Positions 20,080 through 31,979 of a stretch of 64,000 bases of DNA are shown here, in pieces. The stretch covers positions 1 to 64,000 of the forward strand of contig NZ_PDZR01000012.1 in the NCBI RefSeq assembly GCF_002891535.1, written 5' to 3'. How positions within the stretch are numbered: the first letter of the stretch is position 1; each line of letters opens with the position of its first letter. Origin of the DNA: Methylocella silvestris (lineage in GTDB: Bacteria > Pseudomonadota > Alphaproteobacteria > Rhizobiales > Beijerinckiaceae). The notes below the pieces were generated by a model. That model saw only the letters and a program-made list of their open reading frames with translations, did not search any database and was not told where the DNA came from. Both the position numbers and the translations under genes were made by a program.

Positions 20080-21555
20080 TCACGGGCTGGACGATTGCTG
20101 AGACGCCGCTGAGGCGGCGCGACGCGAGGCGAGCGCGCTGAGCATCGCGCGCAGCCGCATCGGCGGGGCGGTCTTGGCGAGAAAATCATAGCCCTGCCGC
20201 TTCAATGCGCGCTGCAGTTCTCCGCTCGAATCGCTCGAGACGATCAACGCCTGCAGCTCCTGCCCGAACGCCTCCCGCATCGCCGCGACCGCCTGCGTTC
20301 CGAAAACGCCATTATCGAGATGATAGTCGGCGATGACGAGCTGAGGCGCCTTCCTTGCGGCGATGAGCGCGGTGATCGCCGCATGCGGCGAGCGCACGGC
20401 GATGGTGATGCAGTTCCAGGAGCGCAGCAGCGCGGAAAGCGCGTTGCGCAGACGCATGTCATTATCGATCACGACAACGCAGAGCCCGGCGAGCGACGCC
20501 CCGCCAGGCTCGGCGATGGGCTCGGGGACGGCAGGGGGCGCCTCGCTCGACCTGAGGCGCAAGGCGAAGCGCGAGCCGCGTCCGAGGGTCGAGCGGACCT
20601 CGATTTTGGCGTCGATCAGGCGGGCGATCCGCTCGGTGATCGCAAGCCCGAGCCCCAGGCCGCGGTCGCCCTCGCGCGCCGCCGCGCCAATTTGTCGGAA
20701 CTCTTCGAAAATCAGCTTCAAATTATCCTCGGCGACGCCGACGCCGGTGTCATGAACTTCGATCACGATCTCCGCGCCGCGCTTGCGGCAGCCGATCAGG
20801 ATCGAGCCCTGCGCAGTATAGCGCAGCGCGTTGCTGATAAAATTGCGCAGCACGCGTTCGATCAGAACGCGATCGCTATGAACCGAGGCGGCGCTCGCGA
20901 CCGTCCTGAGGCGAAGACCGACGGCTTCCGCCTGCGGCTCGTAATCCTGACGGAGCCGATCGAGCAGCGGCTGAAGCGGGAAGGAGCTGAATTCGACCGG
21001 CCAGACGCCGGCGTCGAGGCGGGAGATATCGACGAGCGTGCATACCAGCTCGTCGACCGTGTCGAGCGCCGCCTCGATATTGGCGACGAGTTCGCAGCCG
21101 CGCGACTGTGGGTCGGGAAAGCCGGCGACATGCTCGCCAAGCATGCCAAGGAACAGGCGCGCCACATTCAGCGGCTGGTGCAGATCGTGACTCGCCGCGG
21201 CGAGAAAGCGGGTTTTGCTGAGATTGGCCTTTTCGGCATCGCCCTTCGCCGCCAGCAGGGCTTTTTCGGCAGCGCAGCGCTCCGAGATCTGCTGGAACAG
21301 CTGATGCGTCAGATTGGTCAACTCGGCGGTGCGCTCCGCAACCCTGTTCTCCAGCGTGATCGCCGCCTGAAACAAGGTGAAGGCGTTGTTGCTTTTGGCG
21401 CTCATGTCGTTTTCGACACGGTCCATCAGCACCGAGTTGACCCGGCGCAGCCTTGCGATTTCCGCCCGCAGCGCCGCGGCCTCCTGCTGCTCCGCAGAAG
21501 GTTCAAAAGGCGGCGTCCGCGCCGCGCCCGGAGCGGAAAAGTCAAAGATCGTCAT
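20080..21555 (-). CDS. Soluble hybrid histidine kinase, NahK/ErcS'-like
   Basis: 491 residues with no membrane segment. Coiled N-terminus (about 20-110), DHp with phosphoacceptor His123 in AAASHDLHQPLN, catalytic ATPase domain with N box NFISNALRYT, G1 DTGVGV and G2 GLGLGLAI, then a C-terminal receiver (about 370-480) with DN pair and Asp in VIADYHLDNG. The ATG at 21555 lies inside the end of the upstream FIST gene (14-base overlap), so the two are translated together. This SHDLxQPL kinase group with a C-terminal receiver includes NahK/ErcS' of Pseudomonas, which receives its signal from the FIST protein NosP. Its receiver may relay through a separate phosphotransfer protein, not seen here. 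Confidence 0.88.
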   Translation of the reverse strand: MTIFDFSAPGAARTPPFEPSAEQQEAAALRAEIARLRRVNSVLMDRVENDMSAKSNNAFTLFQAAITLENRVAERTAELTNLTHQLFQQISERCAAEKALLAAKGDAEKANLSKTRFLAAASHDLHQPLNVARLFLGMLGEHVAGFPDPQSRGCELVANIEAALDTVDELVCTLVDISRLDAGVWPVEFSSFPLQPLLDRLRQDYEPQAEAVGLRLRTVASAASVHSDRVLIERVLRNFISNALRYTAQGSILIGCRKRGAEIVIEVHDTGVGVAEDNLKLIFEEFRQIGAAAREGDRGLGLGLAITERIARLIDAKIEVRSTLGRGSRFALRLRSSEAPPAVPEPIAEPGGASLAGLCVVVIDNDMRLRNALSALLRSWNCITIAVRSPHAAITALIAARKAPQLVIADYHLDNGVFGTQAVAAMREAFGQELQALIVSSDSSGELQRALKRQGYDFLAKTAPPMRLRAMLSALASRRAASAASQQSSSP

Positions 21556-22693
21556 AAGGCTTGCCAATGGCGATCGCGGTAAAGGTCTGGTTCAGATGCA
21601 TGCCGGCGAATTGCTCGCCATAGGTGCTGAAGCCGATCACATGATTGGCGGCGAGCAATTCTCCGGCGAGACGTTTCGTCTGCGCCTTTTCCAGTGCGAG
21701 GCTGCGATAGATGCAGTCGAAGCCGATGACGAGCTCGGGTCGTCCGAAGCTTTCGTTCACGCCCTCGAAAAAGGCGGCGAGATTGGGCAGCACCGCCTCG
21801 CTTTTTGCGAGGCGCAGCACCACGCCTTCGTCGATGGCGCAAAAGAAGGTGAGACTGTCGTCGAAATGGGCGGCCTGAATCGAGCGGACATGAAAATCAG
21901 GGCCGATCTTGACCATCAGCGGATAGGCGGAGAAGGTCGAGGGCGTCAGGGCCCGCTCGGGCAGATTGAGCAGACGCGCATATTCGCGCGCCGCCGGTTC
22001 GCCGTTGAGCTCGAACACTTTGCGGCTGTGGGGATCGGCGCGCGTTACCACCATGCGCTCGTCGGAGCCGATGAGATGCTGGCATTTCAGGATTCGGAAC
22101 GGCGCCTTGATGCGGATCGCCGCGAGCAGGGCGGCGTCGCTGTGGAAGGCGCCGTCGCAATAGACGAAGGCGCCGTTGAGGCAGAGATTGTCCGCCGCTG
22201 ATCCGCCGACGAGCGGCGTCATGTCCATCAAGAGATGCATCGAGGCGAGCACGACCTCCTCGTTGCGGGACATGCCGTCGATGAGGAGCAGGGCGAAAGA
22301 ATCCCGCGGGTCGAGCGTATAACCTTTTTCGCCCATTGCCGAGACGACTTTTTGCGTCGCGGCATGGCCGTCGGACATCTGGAATCTTGACAGATTCTGC
22401 ATCAATGCGGTCGCCGCGACGCAATGCGAGGCGGCGATGCTGAAGCCGGTGATCGATCCGTCAAGATAGCCGATCGGGGTGATTTCTCCGGCCGTGGTGC
22501 AGCCGATCATTTGAACGCCGGCGAACATGCGCCGCAGCTCCGGCTCCAGCACATTGAGGTCGAAGCTGTACGAGCAGAAGAATACGACAAGGCCCATGTC
22601 GGGCTGGGAGATGGCGTCGTGAAATTCGCGCACCGCTGTCACGGGATCGGGCGCCGTCGAAAATCCGCGTCGTATCGCCCCGCGCCCGCTCAT
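21542..22693 (-). CDS. FIST-domain sensory protein, NosP-like
   Basis: 383 residues covering FIST_N (about 30-220; GLVVFFCSYSFDLNVLEPELRR, IGCTTAGEITPIGY, LLIDGMSRNEE, LVGGSAAD) and FIST_C (about 230-365; PLMVKIGPDFHVRSIQA, FFCAIDEGVVLRLAK, VIGFDCIYRSL, GFSTYGEQFAGMHLNQT). FIST proteins are cytoplasmic small-ligand sensors. Those encoded next to soluble hybrid kinases include NosP, a haem protein that binds nitric oxide and inhibits its kinase. The 14-base overlap with the kinase gene downstream makes a functional pair very likely. Whether this one binds haem, NO or another ligand cannot be read from sequence. Confidence 0.88.
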   Translation of the reverse strand: MSGRGAIRRGFSTAPDPVTAVREFHDAISQPDMGLVVFFCSYSFDLNVLEPELRRMFAGVQMIGCTTAGEITPIGYLDGSITGFSIAASHCVAATALMQNLSRFQMSDGHAATQKVVSAMGEKGYTLDPRDSFALLLIDGMSRNEEVVLASMHLLMDMTPLVGGSAADNLCLNGAFVYCDGAFHSDAALLAAIRIKAPFRILKCQHLIGSDERMVVTRADPHSRKVFELNGEPAAREYARLLNLPERALTPSTFSAYPLMVKIGPDFHVRSIQAAHFDDSLTFFCAIDEGVVLRLAKSEAVLPNLAAFFEGVNESFGRPELVIGFDCIYRSLALEKAQTKRLAGELLAANHVIGFSTYGEQFAGMHLNQTFTAIAIGKPYDDL

Positions 22694-22796: not shown

Positions 22797-23198
22797 TCAT
22801 TTCACGTCGATCGTGATCGAGGCGCTGAGATCCGGCCCATACGACAGATGCGCGCCATCGCCAAGCTGCAGGGTCAGCTGGTGCTTGCCGGGCGGCAATT
22901 TAAGCTGTGTTTCCGTTTGCGCCTTGCCGAAGTGAATCGAGGTTGCGCTGGCGCCGATGACCTCGCCTTTCGGAATGGGCGCGCCGTCGACGATGAGATG
23001 ATGGTGGCCGCTGTCCGGCGTTGTGTCGCCAGCCGGCTTCAGGTTGAAATTGTCCAGCCCGAATTTGACTGTGACTGGGCTTTCAACGCTCGCTCCATCC
23101 TTGGGCTCGATGAAATAGACGCGCGGCTCGGGGGCGGCGAATGCCGGCGCCGCAACCGTGAACGCAAGGAAGGCGGCGAGATTTATGGCATGCTTCAT
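22797..23198 (-). CDS. DUF4399 exported protein
   Basis: 133 residues. Signal peptide MKHAINLAAFLAFTVAAPAFA, then the DUF4399 pattern RVYFIEPKDGASVESPVTVKFGL, SGHHHLIVDGAPIP, HFGKAQTETQLKLPPGKHQL and LGDGAHL. The cluster of His residues (HHH, HF, HL) could bind a metal, but no function is established for the family. The ATG at 23198 gives the signal peptide directly. It is a single gene between the FIST promoter region and the divergent small secreted protein. Confidence 0.88.
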   Translation of the reverse strand: MKHAINLAAFLAFTVAAPAFAAPEPRVYFIEPKDGASVESPVTVKFGLDNFNLKPAGDTTPDSGHHHLIVDGAPIPKGEVIGASATSIHFGKAQTETQLKLPPGKHQLTLQLGDGAHLSYGPDLSASITIDVK

Positions 23199-23452
23199 GA
23201 TAAAATCCTGTCGTCTTGGCAGCGCGCCTGAAGCCTGATCTGCCTGAAGGCCGCGGGTGGTGATGGAGTAGGCCCGATGTCGGCGTCTGCGGAAAGCCGA
23301 TTTTGAAAAAATTGGCCCCCCGGGCTTACAAGAGACCCCCGACGGCCAATATGAAAGAGAGCGCCTTTTGGGGATGGCGAGCGCTTGACGAACGGCGGAA
23401 TTCTCGCGCCTTGTGTCCGCAATCGACCGCGTCTGTTCGAAGGAAAGTTCAC

Positions 23453-23712: not shown

Positions 23713-24549
23713 CTAGCGGAGGGGGAGGCTTGCCTCCTCCTTCGAGCGACAATCTTCGAGGCGGCGGCGCGGCAGCGCCCAGACGAGTCCCTGCTCGAAA
23801 CCGGCGCCGGTCCATTCTTGTACGGCAACCGTGATCGTCTCCAGACTGGCCTCGATGGTCAGGAAGCAGGCCGGGGTTCCCCGCGTGCGTTGCGAGAGCG
23901 TGCCGGCCCCCACGGCATAGGTCATTCCGTCGCCCCACGGCAAAGCGAGGGCGAAGGGATTATGGACATGGCCGCTCAGGATTAGATCGATGTTCTGCTC
24001 GGCGAGTAGGCGGGCGGCGGCAAGGCCGCGATGCACGCCGCCGGACACGGCGGCATTCGACATCTCGATCAGCGGATGGTGACAGACAAACACTTTGAGC
24101 GCCTTGCTGGCGATCGCCATTTCCTCGGCCGCCTTCTTTACGGCGGCAAGGTCGATTGAGCCCTTCGACCAGTCGAATCGGGGCTGAACGCCGCGCGCCG
24201 TATTCAGGCTCCGGACGGTGAGGCCGGGAAAATAGCCGTTCGTGGCGGACTGACCGACGAAGTCGCGATAACGGCCGAAGGGCCGGAACAGGCGCTGGGC
24301 GAGGTTCCAGACCGGTGTGTCGTGATTGCCCGGCGTGACGATCTGCGGCTGCGGCAGACGCGCCAGCCATTCCCGCGCGGCGGAAAATTCGCGCGATCGT
24401 CCCTCGGCGGTGAGGTCGCCGGAAATGATCGTAAGATCCGGCCGCAATGCTGTCGCGGCTGCTGCTGCGGCTTCAACCGCCTCGCCGTTCTCACAGCCAA
24501 AATGCGGATCGCTGAGATGGACAAGCCGGATGGTCACGGGGCCTGTCAC
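23713..24549 (-). CDS. Calcineurin-like metallophosphoesterase
   Basis: 278 residues, cytoplasmic. Metal-binding motifs in order: LSDPHFG, GDLTAEG, GNHDT, CHHPL and GHVH, which together build the two-metal site. Members hydrolyse cyclic nucleotides, phospholipid headgroups or UDP-diacylglucosamine. The start ATG overlaps the stop of the lipid-kinase gene by 4 bases, so the two are coupled. With the lipid kinase and PAP2 phosphatase before it, a role in lipid phosphate turnover is possible, but substrate is not shown. A GC hairpin within its last codons (23722-23740) may help end the convergent small gene. Confidence 0.88.
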   Translation of the reverse strand: MTGPVTIRLVHLSDPHFGCENGEAVEAAAAAATALRPDLTIISGDLTAEGRSREFSAAREWLARLPQPQIVTPGNHDTPVWNLAQRLFRPFGRYRDFVGQSATNGYFPGLTVRSLNTARGVQPRFDWSKGSIDLAAVKKAAEEMAIASKALKVFVCHHPLIEMSNAAVSGGVHRGLAAARLLAEQNIDLILSGHVHNPFALALPWGDGMTYAVGAGTLSQRTRGTPACFLTIEASLETITVAVQEWTGAGFEQGLVWALPRRRLEDCRSKEEASLPLR

Positions 24550-25481
24550 AGTTTAGCAGCATCGGCCGCTGCCGGCGGCGCATCCGGCCCGACGAGCGCG
24601 TAGAAGGCGTTGGAGACAAAAGCGACATCGACGTCGCGGTCGAGGCGGCACAATTCTCCGTCGAGCAGGCATGGAATGGCCTGCCTTGCGGCGACATGCG
24701 CCGCCTTGCAGCAGTGCGAGCGGACCGCCGGATCGCTCCGCCAATCGCCAAAAAGGGAAGTGAAGCCGATCCGGAACGCGTCGGCGGCGTGGCGCGGATC
24801 GAGAGCGACCGCCTCCATATAGGCCTCGCCGGCGCAAGCGGCCGTCATCAACGGCGACACGAAAGCGACTGCCTCCGCCTTGCTGGTTCGGCCGCCGTCG
24901 AGTTCAAATCGAAGCTTCGATTTGAAGGAGAGGGCGAGCGCCCGCCGCGCCCGCATCAGGGCCAGCATGAGCTTTCCGTGCCGCACCGCTTCGCGCGCCG
25001 GGGCCCAGAGCGCGGGGGCGCCGAGAATCGCTGCGACGTAGAACTGGCGTCCCGCGACCGAGCCGCCGGGCGCTGCGCGAATGCGGCCGGCCTTGAGCGC
25101 GCTTTCGAGCGCGTCCTGCCATTTGCCCCGGCCATAGAGCGCATAAGGCAGCATGTTCATGGTGCCGCCGGCGAGCGGGGCGAACAGCGGGCCGTCGGCT
25201 CCGCATAATTCGGCGGCGAGACGCGCCGTGCCGTCGCCCGCGAGGGTGATGAGAAGGTCTGGATTTGTGTCGACGGCGGCGCGCAGCGCGGCGACGATCT
25301 CGCCCGGCCCGACGCTGACGACCTCAGCGTCGCCTGTGAATGCTGAAAGGATCGTCCGCATCTCGTCGGCCGCGCCGGCGCCGACGCTGCCGCCAGCCTC
25401 GTTGACGATGGCGGCGATGCGTCGGATGGAAGGCGTTCCAGCAGGCCGCCGATCAAGATCTGGCGATAAATTATCGGTCAT
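24546..25481 (-). CDS. Diacylglycerol kinase-family lipid kinase
   Basis: 311 residues. The DAGK catalytic domain at the N-terminus shows AIVNEAGGSVG, the nucleotide motif AGDGTARLAAE and GGTMNMLPYAL, as in YegS/DgkB-type enzymes (here TMNMLP in place of the usual TxNxxA). The ATG at 25481 was chosen because upstream residues in the frame look non-coding and PAP2 ends at 25550. It would phosphorylate diacylglycerol or a related lipid at the membrane face. The downstream metallophosphoesterase start overlaps its stop by 4 bases. Confidence 0.85.
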   Translation of the reverse strand: MTDNLSPDLDRRPAGTPSIRRIAAIVNEAGGSVGAGAADEMRTILSAFTGDAEVVSVGPGEIVAALRAAVDTNPDLLITLAGDGTARLAAELCGADGPLFAPLAGGTMNMLPYALYGRGKWQDALESALKAGRIRAAPGGSVAGRQFYVAAILGAPALWAPAREAVRHGKLMLALMRARRALALSFKSKLRFELDGGRTSKAEAVAFVSPLMTAACAGEAYMEAVALDPRHAADAFRIGFTSLFGDWRSDPAVRSHCCKAAHVAARQAIPCLLDGELCRLDRDVDVAFVSNAFYALVGPDAPPAAADAAKL

Positions 25482-25549
25482 GGTGAACTGAACGCCGCGC
25501 TGCAGCCAGCCGTTCCGAAGAAAGACGATTGACGGCTTTGCCTTGGCTG

Positions 25550-26275
25550 TCAGTTTTCGTCGCGCAAGGCCTCCTGCGCCTGTCTCGTTTCCGGCGCGGC
25601 CTTTCGCGCGATGATCCAGAAACAGAGCGCGAAGGCGGCGCCCGCGCCCCAGCCGGCGATGATGTCGGAGGGCCAATGGACGCCCAGAAAAATCCGGCTG
25701 ACGCCGATCGCCACCGTCATCAGCACCGCCAGCGAGACCAGATAAAGGCGCACGGCCTTCGACGTCTGCGTTTCCGCGACGATTGCGGCGATGGTCAGAT
25801 AGGCGGCCGCCGAGATCATGGCGTGGCCGCTTGGAAAGCTGGCGCTCCAGCTTTGCGTCAGATGCGGAACGATATCGGGTCGGGTTCGATGAAAACTGAG
25901 TTTGATCAAAGCGTTGAGCACTGAGGCGCCGCCGATCGCCGCCACAAGAATCACAAGGGCGCGCCACCGCCTGGCAAGAATGAGAAAGCCGCTCGCGGCG
26001 GCGGTCATGAGCCAGATCACAGTGAAGCCGCCGAGCGCCGAGATATCGATAGCCGATTGCAGCAGCCAGGGCGGTCCAATGGGAATGGCGGGGTCGGCCG
26101 GCGTCCGTAACGCAAGCAGAAGCGCGCGGTCGGTCGCCGCCGTGCCGCCTTCGAACACTTCGTCGACGATGAGCGCGAAAGCGATCAGGGCCGAGATCAG
26201 GAACAGGGCGACCAGCGGCTGAAATCCGGAACGCGCGACAGCGGAGCGGATCGTTTGCAGGGATGGCGGCTTCAA
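25550..26275 (-). CDS. PAP2-family membrane phosphatase
   Basis: About 241 residues with five to six membrane helices and the full acid-phosphatase signature: KLSFHRTRP (KX6RP), SFPSGHAM (PSGH) and SRIFLGVHWPSD (SRX5HX3D). Members dephosphorylate phosphatidic acid, undecaprenyl pyrophosphate or phosphatidylglycerophosphate on the periplasmic side. No ATG starts the frame near the first helix; the TTG at 26275 is the likely start, 14 bases after the DoxX stop. Sits between DoxX and the lipid kinase in the minus-strand run. Confidence 0.88.
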   Translation of the reverse strand: MKPPSLQTIRSAVARSGFQPLVALFLISALIAFALIVDEVFEGGTAATDRALLLALRTPADPAIPIGPPWLLQSAIDISALGGFTVIWLMTAAASGFLILARRWRALVILVAAIGGASVLNALIKLSFHRTRPDIVPHLTQSWSASFPSGHAMISAAAYLTIAAIVAETQTSKAVRLYLVSLAVLMTVAIGVSRIFLGVHWPSDIIAGWGAGAAFALCFWIIARKAAPETRQAQEALRDEN

Positions 26276-26288
26276 GGCGCGTTCCGCC

Positions 26289-26684
26289 TCATGTCGAAGG
26301 AGCCTTCTTGTGGCGCAGGCTGAAGGACCAGTCGATAACGCCGGAGCAAAACAGCGCCCACCAGACCAGCACAGGCTGCATCGCGAGTCTTGGCCCATGA
26401 TAAATCCAGCTGTCGGGCAGGCCCTCGACGCGCACGCCTGCAAAGGCGTGTTTGAGATTGGCGGGGAAGACCGCGATCGCATAGAGGGCCAGCATAACGC
26501 CGGCAAGGCGGCGCAGGCGCGGGACCATCAAAGCGAGCGCGCCGGCGATCTCGCAGACGCCCGTCGCGAGCACCACCGCGCGAGGGTAGGGAACCGAGCC
26601 GGGCATGATTGGCAGGAACCGTTCGGGATGGGCGAGGTGTAGCGCGCCGGCGGCGAAATAGAACGCCGCCATTGCCCAGCGCAT
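26289..26684 (-). CDS. DoxX-family membrane protein
   Basis: 131 residues with four helices: MRWAMAAFYFAAGALHLAHP, VVLATGVCEIAGALALMVP, LAGVMLALYAIAVFPANLKHAF and QPVLVWWALFCSG. This is the MauE/DoxX-like fold. Such proteins have no single known role; some support thiosulfate or redox reactions at the membrane. It lies 56 bases after the antiporter gene and 13 bases before PAP2, consistent with one transcript. Confidence 0.85.
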   Translation of the reverse strand: MRWAMAAFYFAAGALHLAHPERFLPIMPGSVPYPRAVVLATGVCEIAGALALMVPRLRRLAGVMLALYAIAVFPANLKHAFAGVRVEGLPDSWIYHGPRLAMQPVLVWWALFCSGVIDWSFSLRHKKAPST

Positions 26685-26740
26685 CGGCGCGCGACAACGA
26701 TCCGCCCGCGACCCGCCTGCTCCAAGGTGCGCCGGCGCGC

Positions 26741-28447
26741 CTATTCGGCCGCCTCGGCGGCGACGATGGAGTCCCGCGCGCGCGCTTCATGTTCGAGCGC
26801 CCAGGCCTCGGCCGCCGCGCGGTCGATGCCGAGCTCGACCAGCACGGCGACGGCGAGATCGAGGCCCGGCGGGGTCGAGGCGTCGATGACGGGCAGCAGG
26901 CCGATCGCCGCAAAGGCCGCATGTTCATCCTCGTCCGCGGCAAGCGTGAAGCGCTTGATGTGGGGAAAGGCCAGCGCCGCGAGCGGAGTCAATTCGCGCG
27001 AAACCCGAAGGTCCGGCGTCGTGATGACCACGATTTTGCGCTCCCTGACGTTGAGCGGCTCCCAGATGCGCGGATCCGAGGCGTCTCCGAACAAGACCTC
27101 ATAGCCGTCGGCGTTAGCGTCCGCGAAGGCCTTCTGATCGGCCTCGATCGCCGCATAGCCGATGTCGAATTCGCTCAGCGCGTCGGCGACGGTGCGGCCG
27201 ACTGCCCCCATGCCGATAATCAGCACGGGAGCTGCGAGTTCGCTCTGGAGAAGTTCGCGCTCCTGCTTCGCCGCCCGGCGCGCGCGCATTTTGCCGGCGA
27301 GTTTGCGGCCGACCTTGGCGATTGCCGGCGTTAGCGCGAGGCTAAGAGCAACGGCGGAAATAATGATCGCCGCGGCGCGGTCGCCGATCAGAAGGCGCAT
27401 CGTTGGCATGCTGAGGATGACGAAGGCGAATTCCGAGCCCTGGGCGAGCAGGAAGCCGAGCTGGGTCGAGCCGGGAATCGACCAGCGGAAGATCAGGCTG
27501 GCGACGCCATTGGTGACGATTTTGATGGCGATCAGGGCGATGGTGACGCCAAGGATCGCCAGCCAGTTCTGGCCGAGCGCGTTAAGATCGAGCGAAAGGC
27601 CGACCGAGATGAAGAAGAAGCTCAGCAGCAGATTGCGGAATGGCTTGGTCTCCGCCTGAATGATCGGCCGATAGGGCGTCTCCGCGATGATCATGCCGCC
27701 GAGAAATCCGCCGAGCGTGAGGGAAAGTCCGATCGAGCCCGTCGCCCAGCTCGCAGCGAGGGCGACGAGCAGTGCGCTCGCCGTAAAAACTTCGGCGTTG
27801 TCGGTGCGGGCGATGAGATCGAAAAGCGGCCGCACGACAAGGCGGGCCAAGGCGAAGGCGACGCCGAAGGCCGCCGCCGCCTTGAGCACCGCCAGGAAGA
27901 GCTGCGGGGCCATCGAGCCCGACTCGCCGCCGATGGCGTTGACGATGATCAAAAGGAAGATCGCGGCGACGTCCTGAAAGATGAGAATCGCGGTGGCGGT
28001 AAGGCCGACCGGGCAATTCTGCTGGCGCCGCTGCGCCAGCAGCCCGGCGACGACCGCGGTGGAGGAGAGGGCCAGCGTCGCCCCGAGCAGAAAAGCGGGC
28101 AGCGGGGCGAGCCCCAAAATGAGGCCGCCAAGGCCGAGACCCAGCCCGCCAAGTGCGACCTGCACCGGTCCGAAGCCAAAGATGTCGCGCGCCTGCTCGC
28201 GCAGATGACCCAGCGAGAAATGCAGGCCGATATCGAACAGGAGGAAGACGACGCCAAGCTCCGCCAGCAGGGCGATGGTGGAGCTCGCGCCGTCGACGCC
28301 GCTGGCGTGCAGCAGGATGCCGAGCACCAGATAGCCGACAATCGGGCTGAGGCGCGCCGCGCGGCAGGCCACGGCGGCGATGACGCCGAACAGCAGCAAG
28401 AGGACGACGGGCTGAAGGGAATCAAGAACGGCGTGAATATGGTCCAT
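26741..28447 (-). CDS. CPA2 monovalent cation/proton antiporter with TrkA-N domain (KefB/YbaL-like)
   Basis: 568 residues. About twelve membrane helices (1-380), including LLALSSTAVVAGLLAQRR and FQDVAAIFLLI, conserved in the Kef/YbaL branch, followed by a cytoplasmic TrkA-N nucleotide-binding domain with GMGAVGRTVADAL (GxGxxG) and acidic residues EAD at the end of the second strand. Predicted K+ or Na+/H+ exchange, gated by NAD(H) or a similar ligand. Its start lies 6 bases after the stop of a CNBD-flavoprotein gene, a strong hint of functional linkage with a redox-sensing partner. Confidence 0.93.
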   Translation of the reverse strand: MDHIHAVLDSLQPVVLLLLFGVIAAVACRAARLSPIVGYLVLGILLHASGVDGASSTIALLAELGVVFLLFDIGLHFSLGHLREQARDIFGFGPVQVALGGLGLGLGGLILGLAPLPAFLLGATLALSSTAVVAGLLAQRRQQNCPVGLTATAILIFQDVAAIFLLIIVNAIGGESGSMAPQLFLAVLKAAAAFGVAFALARLVVRPLFDLIARTDNAEVFTASALLVALAASWATGSIGLSLTLGGFLGGMIIAETPYRPIIQAETKPFRNLLLSFFFISVGLSLDLNALGQNWLAILGVTIALIAIKIVTNGVASLIFRWSIPGSTQLGFLLAQGSEFAFVILSMPTMRLLIGDRAAAIIISAVALSLALTPAIAKVGRKLAGKMRARRAAKQERELLQSELAAPVLIIGMGAVGRTVADALSEFDIGYAAIEADQKAFADANADGYEVLFGDASDPRIWEPLNVRERKIVVITTPDLRVSRELTPLAALAFPHIKRFTLAADEDEHAAFAAIGLLPVIDASTPPGLDLAVAVLVELGIDRAAAEAWALEHEARARDSIVAAEAAE

Positions 28448-28453
28448 AGACGA

Positions 28454-30139
28454 TCAGCCCCGCTTCGCTTCGAGGAAGCGGTGTATGTCGGATACGACGA
28501 CGGAGCCCTCGCCTACGGCCGAAGCGACCCGCTTGGTCGAGCCGGCGCGGACGTCTCCGACGGCAAAAATGCCCGGTAGCGAGGTGGCGTAGGGAGAGGC
28601 GGCCGAGACCCCCGCGGCCGCGCCCGTCGCGACAAAGCCCTTTTCGTCCAGCGTCAGACAGCCCTGAAGCCAGCCCGTATTCGGCGTCGCGCCGATCATG
28701 ACGAACATGTTGCAAACCTGCAGCCGTTCGCTTGCGCCAGTCGTTTTGTTAGTCAGCGTGACTTCGCTCAGCCGCTCGCCGCCATGGACGCCGCTAATTT
28801 CCGTCCGCACATGCAGCGTGATCGACGGCGAGCCCAAAATCCGCTCGATCAGATAATAGGACATGGTCGCGGAAAGATCGGGCGCGCGCACGACGATATG
28901 GACATGCCGCGTCTTGCGCGACAGAAACAGCGCGGCCTGGCCGGCGGAATTGCCGCCGCCGACGACGATGACTTCCTCGTCGCCGCAGAGCGCCGCCTCC
29001 ATGGCGGTCGCGGCGTAATGAATGCCCTGGCCCTCGAACCGTTCATAATCGGGCAGGTCGAGCTTGCGATAGCGGGCGCCGGAGGCGATGACGAGCGTCT
29101 CCGCGCGAACCCTGCCGCCGTCTTCGAGTTGAAGCACCAGAGGCGACCCGCAGCAGTCGATCCCCGCCACATCGCGCGAGATCGCCAGCTTGGCGCCGAA
29201 TTTCTGCGCCTGCACCTGCGCCCGGCCGGACAGCGCCTGTCCTGAAATGCCGGTCGGGAAGCCGAGGTAATTCTCGATCTTCGAGCTCGTGCCCGCCTGT
29301 CCGCCGGGCGCCTCGCCTTCGATCACCAGCGTGTCGAGCCCCTCCGAGGCGGCGTAAACGGCGGCGGCCAAGCCGCCCGGACCGCCGCCGACGACGACGA
29401 CATCATAGACATGGGCCGGATCGATCGTCTCGGTGAGGCCGAGCGCGTCGGCGAGCGCCGCAGTCGAGGGGTTGCGCAGCACCTCATGCCGGGAATCAAT
29501 CACGACCGGCAATTGATCCGCCCTGATCTCGAAGCAGTCGATGAAGCCGTCGGCGTCGGGGTCGGTCTCGGTGTCGAGCAGCCGGTGCGGATAGGCGTTG
29601 CGCGTCAGAAAGCGTTGCAGCCGGATGGTGTCGCCGGAGTGCGCCGGACCGACGAGAAAGACGGCGCCGCGCGCATGGCGGATAAGGCCGACGCGGCGCA
29701 GAATGAACGCTCGCATGATGATTTCGGCGCAATCGACATCAATCGATGACATGCGGCGGAAATCGGCGCGCTTGACGCGGATGAGGCGCGTTTCCCCACG
29801 CGTCCGCCCGCTGACGAGCGATTCGCGCTCGTTGAACAGATTGAGTTCGCCGGTGAACTGCCGCTCGGTGAGGACGATAAAGACATCCGGCTGGCAGTCT
29901 TCGCCATGATCGAAAATTTCGATCGCGCCATCGAGGACGATGAAGAAATCGCTGTTGCGCTGACCGCGATCGAACAGGATTGCGCCGGACGGCAGCAGCT
30001 CCTGCTTGCCGAACATGGCGAGGCGCGCGACCTGCTCATGCGTCAGCTGGGGAAAGGTTTGCGCCCGGCGCTCATAGGGGTCGGCCGGGTCGAGCGCGGC
30101 GCCAGTCGTGAGCTGCGGCGTTTCGAGCGTTAGGGTCAA
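28454..30139 (-). CDS. Cyclic-nucleotide-domain/thioredoxin-reductase-like flavoprotein lacking CxxC
   Basis: 561 residues from a TTG at 30139 with GGAGA upstream. Order: a Crp-type cyclic-nucleotide-binding domain (about 30-140; FDRGQRNSDFFIVLDG), a Grx/Trx-like linker domain (about 155-235, AVFLVGPAHSG), then a two-Rossmann FAD/NADPH module with VVVVGGGPGGLAAAVYA, GGGNSAGQAALFLSRK and GIFAVGDVR. The site that carries the redox CxxC pair in thioredoxin reductase reads HYAATAMEAAL, with no cysteines. The enzyme thus cannot reduce thioredoxin in the usual way and may act as an NAD(P)H oxidoreductase or sensor. First gene of the run that continues with the antiporter. Confidence 0.9.
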   Translation of the reverse strand: MTLTLETPQLTTGAALDPADPYERRAQTFPQLTHEQVARLAMFGKQELLPSGAILFDRGQRNSDFFIVLDGAIEIFDHGEDCQPDVFIVLTERQFTGELNLFNERESLVSGRTRGETRLIRVKRADFRRMSSIDVDCAEIIMRAFILRRVGLIRHARGAVFLVGPAHSGDTIRLQRFLTRNAYPHRLLDTETDPDADGFIDCFEIRADQLPVVIDSRHEVLRNPSTAALADALGLTETIDPAHVYDVVVVGGGPGGLAAAVYAASEGLDTLVIEGEAPGGQAGTSSKIENYLGFPTGISGQALSGRAQVQAQKFGAKLAISRDVAGIDCCGSPLVLQLEDGGRVRAETLVIASGARYRKLDLPDYERFEGQGIHYAATAMEAALCGDEEVIVVGGGNSAGQAALFLSRKTRHVHIVVRAPDLSATMSYYLIERILGSPSITLHVRTEISGVHGGERLSEVTLTNKTTGASERLQVCNMFVMIGATPNTGWLQGCLTLDEKGFVATGAAAGVSAASPYATSLPGIFAVGDVRAGSTKRVASAVGEGSVVVSDIHRFLEAKRG

Positions 30140-30353: not shown

Positions 30354-31979
30354 TTATGGGCGTTCGCGGTCAGGTAAAGCGTTTTCAAAACGCGCCGGCG
30401 CCGCCGCGTCGGCGTCGGTGACGTAAAGCGGCAGGGTGATGACGAATTTGGCGCCGGGCGGCTCTGTTCCGCTGGCGGCCGCTGCGGGAGGCGCAAGGGC
30501 GAGGGATCCGCCATGGGCGCGCACGAGGTCGGAGGCGATGACGAGGCCAAGGCCGGTCCCCCCGGCGCGATCGGCGGTGAAAAAGGCGGCGAACAGTTTT
30601 GAGCGGGCGGAGTCCGGGACGCCTGGACCTGAATCCGAAACCTCGATGATCGTTTCGGCGCGTCCGGGCAGCGCGGCCGGCGCGCCCTTTGCCGGCGCGG
30701 GGCGCCCCTCGCAGGGACCGAGCCGCTCGCGCGCGGCAATGCGGATCTCGGCTGGCCAGCCGGGCGCGGGTCCCGCGCTCTGCAAGGCCTCGACGCCATT
30801 GCGCAGAAGATTGACGAGGACGCGGAACATTTGCTCGGCGTCGGCGCAGACCTCGAGGCGCTCCGGCGCGTCATTGACAAATTCGATATGCCCCGCGGCC
30901 AGCGGCGAAACGCTTTCGATCGCTTCCTCGACAAGCGGGCGGAGAAGAAACCGGCGCAGCTTCGGCGGCTCGTCCACGGCCCGGCCGTAGGTCATCGTCG
31001 CCTGGCAGAAGCGGATCGCGCGATCGAGCGTCGCCACCAGTTTGGGGGCGATGCGCTGGGCCAGCGGATCGGTGACATTGGCGAGGCGGTCCGACAGAAG
31101 CTGCGCCGAAGACAGCATGTTGCGCATGTCGTGGTTGATCTTCGCCACCGCGAGGCCGAGCGCGGCGAGATGCTTTTTCTGGTTCAGCTCGCGCACGAGC
31201 GATTCCTGCATGACGGCGAGCGCCGCCTCCGCCTGGCCGATCTCGTGTTCGCTGCCGGAGGGCTCGATGATGCGCGCCGCATTCTCGGGGTCAGCGCCAA
31301 ATTCGGTGATGTTGTCGGTCAGCCTTCGGACGGGCCGCAGCACCATGATATTGGCGGCGATCGTCGCCAGGATCGCGACGATCGCGGACATCACGAGGGT
31401 CATGACGAGAAGCCGCCGAGAATAGGCCTCCATGCCGCGCTTGAGCGGCGCCTCGTCCATGGTGATGGCGACGGCGTCGCCTCCCATAGGGGCCGCCCCC
31501 AGAACGGTGATGACGCGCCCGCTCGGGGCGAACAGCGTCTCGATCGCCTCGAGCGGGACGTCGCCCAGCGACTGGGTGCGCAGATCATAGACCGCGTCGA
31601 CGGCCGGCGGCAGGTCCGACGAGGCGAGGATCCGCTTGGTGCCTTTCATATTGAGGACGATCACCCGCGCGCCGACGCTTTCGAGCAGCATGCGCGACAG
31701 CTCGGGCGGGGTCATCGCGCTCGGCGCGGCTTCAAGCACGAGCGCGGCGGTATAGGCGGCGCTGAGCCGGTTATGCAGCCAATAGGAGCGGTAGATCGAC
31801 AAAGCCGGCACGTAAATCATCGTCGCCGCGATCATGACGAACGCCGTATTCAGCACCAGGACGCGCATGGAGAGGCCGAAGGACAGCCGGCGCCGCCGGC
31901 GCGCGCGGGCTGCCTCCGCCGCTGGCTCGGCGGCGAGCGACTCATGGCCGACATGCGGAGGAATGGCGAGTTCGCTCAT
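30354..31979 (-). CDS. Membrane sensor histidine kinase
   Basis: 541 residues. Two membrane helices (about 38-60 and 190-215) flank a periplasmic sensor of about 130 residues without a recognisable fold, followed by a HAMP-like region (about 215-270), a DHp helix with His near 283 in AKINHDMRNMLSSA (HDMRN in place of the usual HELRN), and an ATPase domain with N box NLLRNGVEAL, G1 DSGPGV and G2 GGTGLGLVIA. No response regulator is adjacent, so it is an orphan. A 20-bp perfect palindrome lies 33 bases upstream (32012-32031). The CNBD-flavoprotein gene follows after about 214 bases. Confidence 0.9.
   Translation of the reverse strand: MSELAIPPHVGHESLAAEPAAEAARARRRRRLSFGLSMRVLVLNTAFVMIAATMIYVPALSIYRSYWLHNRLSAAYTAALVLEAAPSAMTPPELSRMLLESVGARVIVLNMKGTKRILASSDLPPAVDAVYDLRTQSLGDVPLEAIETLFAPSGRVITVLGAAPMGGDAVAITMDEAPLKRGMEAYSRRLLVMTLVMSAIVAILATIAANIMVLRPVRRLTDNITEFGADPENAARIIEPSGSEHEIGQAEAALAVMQESLVRELNQKKHLAALGLAVAKINHDMRNMLSSAQLLSDRLANVTDPLAQRIAPKLVATLDRAIRFCQATMTYGRAVDEPPKLRRFLLRPLVEEAIESVSPLAAGHIEFVNDAPERLEVCADAEQMFRVLVNLLRNGVEALQSAGPAPGWPAEIRIAARERLGPCEGRPAPAKGAPAALPGRAETIIEVSDSGPGVPDSARSKLFAAFFTADRAGGTGLGLVIASDLVRAHGGSLALAPPAAAASGTEPPGAKFVITLPLYVTDADAAAPARFENALPDRERP

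Follow-up and report, generated by a model that had tools for sequence, protein, structure and literature searches.

The locus and its closest described relatives

We begin by considering the KefF-KefC and KefG-KefB systems of Enterobacteria, in which a flavin oxidoreductase gene lies directly 5' of the gene for a CPA2 antiporter with a C-terminal KTN/RCK domain. These are glutathione-gated K+ efflux systems. The flavin oxidoreductase KefF is required for full KefC activity and reportedly may act by competition at the KTN interface (PMC11150392, PMC10224563); in E. coli the kefF and kefC genes share 8 bp (NC_000913). Glutathione is held in KefC by R409, Q412, R416, R498, R516 and N551 (PMC11150392, PMC10224563), and Q155/D156 together with the SST motif are tied to electroneutral K+/H+ exchange (PMC10224563). 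Here we examine a 64,000-nucleotide stretch of Methylocella silvestris DNA (NZ_PDZR01000012.1, positions 1 to 64,000; hereafter the window), which belongs to contig C3 in a genome of 4.28 Mb. It carries a flavoprotein gene directly upstream of a Kef-type antiporter gene, at the head of a minus-strand run of six open reading frames (ORFs; 23713-30139).

The pair resembles the enterobacterial systems in its gene order and in the QD and SST motifs of the antiporter, and differs from them in both partners. KefF is a 20-kDa FMN quinone reductase, whereas the window flavoprotein is a 561-residue FAD/thioredoxin reductase (TrxR)-like protein with a cyclic-nucleotide-binding-type domain (CNBD); no KefF/KefG-type FMN ancillary subunit is found just upstream of the antiporter, where this protein is encoded instead. 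The antiporter, unlike KefC, lacks the glutathione residues and the C-terminal part that contains N551. A shortened C terminus and the absence of a glutathione pocket are also features of the RosB-like Kef homologues (YbaL, Yersinia RosB). Yersinia RosB is paired with RosA, and R516 is kept in RosB-like proteins (PMC10224563). In the window antiporter, however, this position is Asp, and the protein scores nearer to KefC (261 bits) and KefB (237 bits) than to YbaL (119 bits). For the flavoprotein, bacterial low-molecular-weight thioredoxin reductase and AhpF have the same FAD/NAD(P) module at ~30-35% identity, and in AhpF, too, thioredoxin-fold domains precede the reductase module; the window protein differs in its missing CxxC, in the CNBD in front and in an altered NADPH motif that keeps only R418.

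Our literature search returned no paper on the flavoprotein-antiporter pair, on the role of the flavoprotein family or on the kinase-phosphoesterase cluster found further along the run, and in a study of M. silvestris gene expression under lanthanum the words antiporter, thioredoxin, potassium and diacylglycerol are absent from the main text. A conserved pair with a different redox protein is a directly testable case for the gating of Kef antiporters that have no glutathione site, and it would give the widespread family of CNBD-TrxR-like flavoproteins a first link to a function.

Two separable gene blocks

A preliminary description, made from the sequence, presented the run as six same-strand genes with gaps of 6, 56, 13, 68 and -4 bases in gene order, and took it for a single operon in which K+/H+ flux is coupled to redox state and to the turnover of lipid phosphates. 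The ORF calls and Pfam agree with the strand, the gaps and the families (in gene order: Pyr_redox_2 + cNMP_binding; Na_H_Exchanger + TrkA_N; DoxX_2; PAP2; DAGK_cat; Metallophos). A tight same-strand run is by itself not unusual, and it is gene order conserved in other genomes that exceeds chance. We searched 99 related genomes with five of the six proteins, DoxX being checked in the extracted neighbourhoods only. The genus comprises 15 genomes, the window species (G000) among them; G002 is Methylocella tundrae, G003 Methylocapsa palsarum and G005 Methylocapsa aurea.

The run consists of two separable blocks, block A (flavoprotein and antiporter) and block B (PAP2, a diacylglycerol (DAG)-kinase-like protein, DAGK, and a metallophosphoesterase, MPE), which come together only within the Methylocella group. 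The exact six-gene order is found in two close species only, the window species and G009, which are also the only ones with DoxX between antiporter and PAP2. DoxX is absent there in G002 and G014, which have the other five genes in order, so that block B follows block A in four of the 15 genus genomes. Adjacency of flavoprotein and antiporter extends to six of the 15, at a spacing of 5-6 bp. The G008 locus reads histidine kinase - flavoprotein - antiporter - DUF4399, with PAP2, DAGK and MPE missing there; in G003 block A is found by itself, with DAGK and MPE clustered on a different contig; G010 has PAP2-DAGK-MPE and no block A. In other genera of the order, DAGK and MPE are adjacent in eight genomes, often with the same 4-nt overlap and without block A, and DAGK and PAP2 are adjacent in three. 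Because the blocks occur separately in G008, G003, G010 and these other genera, we treat them as two units, and a single six-gene system is rejected on synteny. Outside the closest strains the order of the first two genes is conserved, and that of the run of six is not. That unrelated units can come together in one tight run calls for caution in reading operon function from spacing alone.

Pairing of flavoprotein and antiporter beyond the genus

A scan for the antiporter, with one genome per species, gives 15 relatives. Three of them, none a member of the genus, are preceded by a flavoprotein gene whose product is 56-67% identical to that of the window. The distance is 4 bp in Defluviicoccus, 24 bp in a Burkholderiales metagenome-assembled genome (MAG) and 493 bp in an Acetobacteraceae MAG, where a HicB-like ORF intervenes. 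With Defluviicoccus included, the antiporter follows the flavoprotein by 4-6 bp in seven genomes. The proposed link between flavoprotein and antiporter is supported: the pair is conserved outside the genus at nearly the same spacing and has the kefF-kefC layout. Co-transcription of the two genes is strongly suggested by this spacing. In the trees, a single supported subclade (17 rows) contains all paired flavoproteins; the pairing requires at least 4-5 changes. Among 385 genomes, an even sample of the class, the closest flavoprotein subclade occurs in seven others, none of which (0/7) has a close relative of the antiporter. The history of the partnership includes some losses (M. aurea kept the antiporter only) and perhaps some transfers.

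Two of the outside loci have neighbours of their own. In Defluviicoccus, near-identical short integrase-like ORFs flank the pair on both sides (L105 4560-5122 and 11576-12123), and the pair there may be able to travel between insertion-sequence copies. In the Burkholderiales MAG the antiporter gene overlaps by 4 nt with an MFS exporter gene behind it (L101 8689-9213), an arrangement that resembles the RosA/RosB pairing.

The antiporter

The antiporter matches the Pfam families Na_H_Exchanger (2e-49) and TrkA_N (2e-16), and its closest solved relative is E. coli KefC (8bxg, 2.5e-57). We aligned it, together with 16 relatives, to KefC from NC_000913. Q158/D159, the equivalents of KefC Q155/D156, are present in 17/17, and the SST and GxGxxG motifs are kept. 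None of the six glutathione residues remains in the window protein: R409 is replaced by Ala, Q412 by Arg, R416 by Asp, R498 by Ala and R516 by Asp, while N551 aligns to a gap in the missing C-terminal part. All 17 sequences have D422, at the position of KefC R416, and D447, at that of the F441 switch. Glutathione gating is rejected on the loss of the six residues. By the features tested, the antiporter is Kef-like in action and not a glutathione-gated Kef; electrophile-activated K+ efflux is a prediction only, and the KTN domain probably binds nucleotide, not glutathione.

We reject a link to KefB from the stress-tolerance island of enterobacteria, as the antiporter has no close plasmid relative; one Novosphingobium plasmid (57%) aside, its best plasmid matches are Azospirillum antiporters at ~39%.

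The flavoprotein

The flavoprotein contains Pyr_redox_2 (1.7e-36) and cNMP_binding (9e-11) domains, and its AlphaFold model (pLDDT 88.8) finds AhpF and TrxR as the best Foldseek matches. Three parts can be recognized: the cyclic-nucleotide-type domain at the N terminus, a middle domain resembling thioredoxin/glutaredoxin (residues 160-233, strand-helix-strand-helix-strand-strand-helix as read from the model) and the TrxR-like module. In an alignment of 39 family members, the CxxC of the reductase module (residues 360-393) is found in 0/39, Cys385 is present in 37/39, and R418 never varies, nor does most of the GGGNSAGQ motif. The Arg of the phosphate-binding cassette, at position 107, is likewise found in 0/39, the position being occupied by A, S, I, V, N, T, P or H. 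The thioredoxin reductase score is 239 against an NCBIfam cut-off of 343. Thioredoxin reduction is disfavoured by the missing CxxC, and sensing of cAMP or cGMP by the missing cassette Arg; these residues make it probable that the protein is not a thioredoxin reductase and not a canonical cAMP sensor either, and "cyclic-nucleotide", as the preliminary description had it, survives as the name of a domain only.

In other bacteria the neighbours of the family are linked to stress or export and include UBP zinc fingers, Dps, MFS exporters, a gene for organic hydroperoxide resistance and, in Rhodococcus, ClpB and TrxA. The UBP-type zinc-finger (zf-UBP) protein, of ~100 residues, recurs beside the family even in Rhodococcus (L112 3981-4289, L113 7547-7855, L121 4640-4951, L122 4693-5001, L123 4329-4640, L134 3636-3944, L136 3733-3999); as a partner for the window flavoprotein it is rejected, zf-UBP not being found in the window's own genome. 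In two genomes an MFS exporter gene directly follows the flavoprotein gene (L112 831-2195, L113 4418-5776).

Proposed mechanism and alternatives

Based on the kefF-kefC layout, the 4-6 bp spacing across orders and the stress genes beside the flavoprotein family, we propose a KefF-like role for the flavoprotein. Our best reading, in which we place about even confidence, is a KefFC-like, redox-linked K+/H+ exchange pair next to a separate lipid-phosphate unit. The antiporter would be a KefC-like electroneutral K+/H+ exchanger without glutathione gating, and the flavoprotein, a soluble, CxxC-less, TrxR-like protein made from the shared message just ahead of it, would fill the role that KefF has toward KefC. 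Under redox or electrophile stress it would modulate the antiporter, or the local NAD(P)H of the antiporter, with K+ efflux and cytoplasmic acidification as the outcome. By analogy with KefF, we infer that the flavoprotein binds and gates the antiporter. PAP2, DAGK and MPE would act as an independent unit of lipid-phosphate turnover. A more specific version, which we regard as tentative and less likely than not, is that this Kef subfamily swapped glutathione gating for a dedicated CNBD/TrxR-like subunit, which would sense redox through its flavin and Cys385 and switch K+/H+ exchange by binding to the KTN domain.

Several observations count against the redox-linked pair with a separate lipid unit. 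The partnership is recurrent but optional: relatives of the antiporter without the flavoprotein are found in M. aurea, Acidisoma and Sphingomonas, and most flavoproteins of the family occur without this antiporter. Blocks A and B, moreover, lie 42-60 bp apart in the four genomes where they meet, and may be co-transcribed there. That each protein is found alone in many genomes also speaks for the main rival, in which flavoprotein and antiporter are produced together under one stress regulon because each helps against oxidants or electrophiles, and neither binds or regulates the other. This is a real possibility, and the MFS exporter that replaces the antiporter behind the flavoprotein elsewhere agrees with it, as do the other stress genes near which the flavoprotein stands; the 4-6 bp spacing kept across orders and the restriction of pairing to a single flavoprotein subclade suggest, however, a more specific link.

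The six-gene operon that would couple K+/H+ flux, redox state and lipid-phosphate turnover is consistent with the common strand, the small gaps and the order of the blocks in G000, G009, G002 and G014, but we consider it improbable given the loci that have one block without the other and a DoxX gene that is at the locus in two species only. Still less probable is that a few horizontal transfers spread a neutral neighbourhood and that the pair has no functional meaning. Its patchy distribution, the scatter of the pairing on both trees (4-5 changes) and the integrase-like ORFs around the Defluviicoccus pair would fit such a spread, but adjacency and near-constant spacing persist while the proteins diverge to 60-70% identity, a divergence over which neutral gene order usually decays. 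The initial observation is confirmed and its interpretation about half right; the flavoprotein-antiporter pair merits a test, and the lipid coupling probably does not.

The lipid-phosphate genes

PAP2 (Pfam 3e-24; YodM/PgpB 5jki, 5e-19) carries the motifs KX6RP, PSGH and SRX5HX3D. The DAGK-like protein (DAGK_cat, 1e-7) has a model with pLDDT 88.9 whose Foldseek match is DgkB (2qv7, E 3.6e-19); its motifs GDG, GTxN and DGE are invariant in 19 sequences, with GGDGT reading AGDGT in the window protein. The lipid-kinase motifs and the DgkB fold are thus both present, at ~17% identity to solved kinases. In the MPE (Metallophos, 3e-15), D14, H16, D45, N75, H76, D77, H157, H158, H194 and H196 are invariant in 13 sequences. 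Block B is like the DgkB/YegS-type kinases, PAP2 proteins and calcineurin-like phosphoesterases in fold and catalytic motifs, and unlike them in forming a conserved kinase-phosphoesterase gene pair, sometimes joined by PAP2. A lipid-phosphate cycle is plausible, in which the kinase forms a lipid phosphate and the membrane phosphatase PAP2 removes it, together with a soluble phosphoesterase; diacylglycerol would be a putative substrate. Nothing but position in four genomes ties block B to K+ or redox.

In Methylocapsa palsarum the DAGK-like gene (L081 6017-6969) is split in two overlapping frames, by a frameshift or a sequencing error, and the MPE is intact. The PAP2-DAGK-MPE genes of G010 (L080 6283-9897) lie beside a same-strand polyphosphate kinase 2 gene.

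Gene calls and neighbouring genes

The features of the locus are collected in Table 1. The flavoprotein and antiporter of G009, the nearest species, are 95-96% identical to those of the window, and across the six genes the substitutions between the two genomes amount to 18-33% at third codon positions and 2-9% at first and second positions. Because the third-position differences far exceed the others, we take all six ORFs, on this codon pattern, to be real genes under purifying selection. A foreign origin judged by base composition is rejected, as the GC of the six genes (0.64-0.68) is close to the window mean (0.645). Promoter and terminator scans of the run gave results near chance level.

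Table 1. Features of the run and of its surroundings in the window
Feature	Position	Strand	Remarks
CNBD - Grx/Trx-like domain - TrxR-like flavoprotein	28454-30139	-	TTG start; block A gene 1
Kef-type CPA2 K+/H+ antiporter + KTN (TrkA_N) domain	26741-28447	-	block A gene 2; gap 6
DoxX_2-like small membrane protein	26289-26684	-	Pfam DoxX_2 2.9e-9; gap 56
PAP2-type membrane lipid phosphatase	25550-26275	-	TTG start; gap 13; block B
DAG-kinase-like lipid kinase	24546-25481	-	gap 68; block B
Calcineurin-like metallophosphoesterase (MPE)	23713-24549	-	4-nt overlap with DAGK (GTGA); block B
Histidine kinase upstream of block A	30354-31979	-	HATPase_c; ends 214 bp before flavoprotein
DUF4399 gene, downstream of run	22797-23231		
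NosP-like nitric oxide sensor, downstream	21542-22693	-	421 bits, cut-off 450
Hybrid histidine kinase/response regulator, downstream	20080-21567	-	

The histidine kinase upstream of block A is kept in G009, G002, G014 and G008 and not in G003, with gaps of 163-433 bp, and is probably not part of the block A unit. In three relatives a second, pyridine-nucleotide flavoprotein (474-490 residues, Pyr_redox_2 + Pyr_redox_dim) is encoded just before this kinase (L059 2580-4004, L058 14077-15510, L060 11590-13062); it is missing in the window. On the downstream side, the NosP-like sensor directly precedes the hybrid histidine kinase/response regulator. This arrangement is familiar from NosP-NahK pairs and is kept in G009, G002 and G014.

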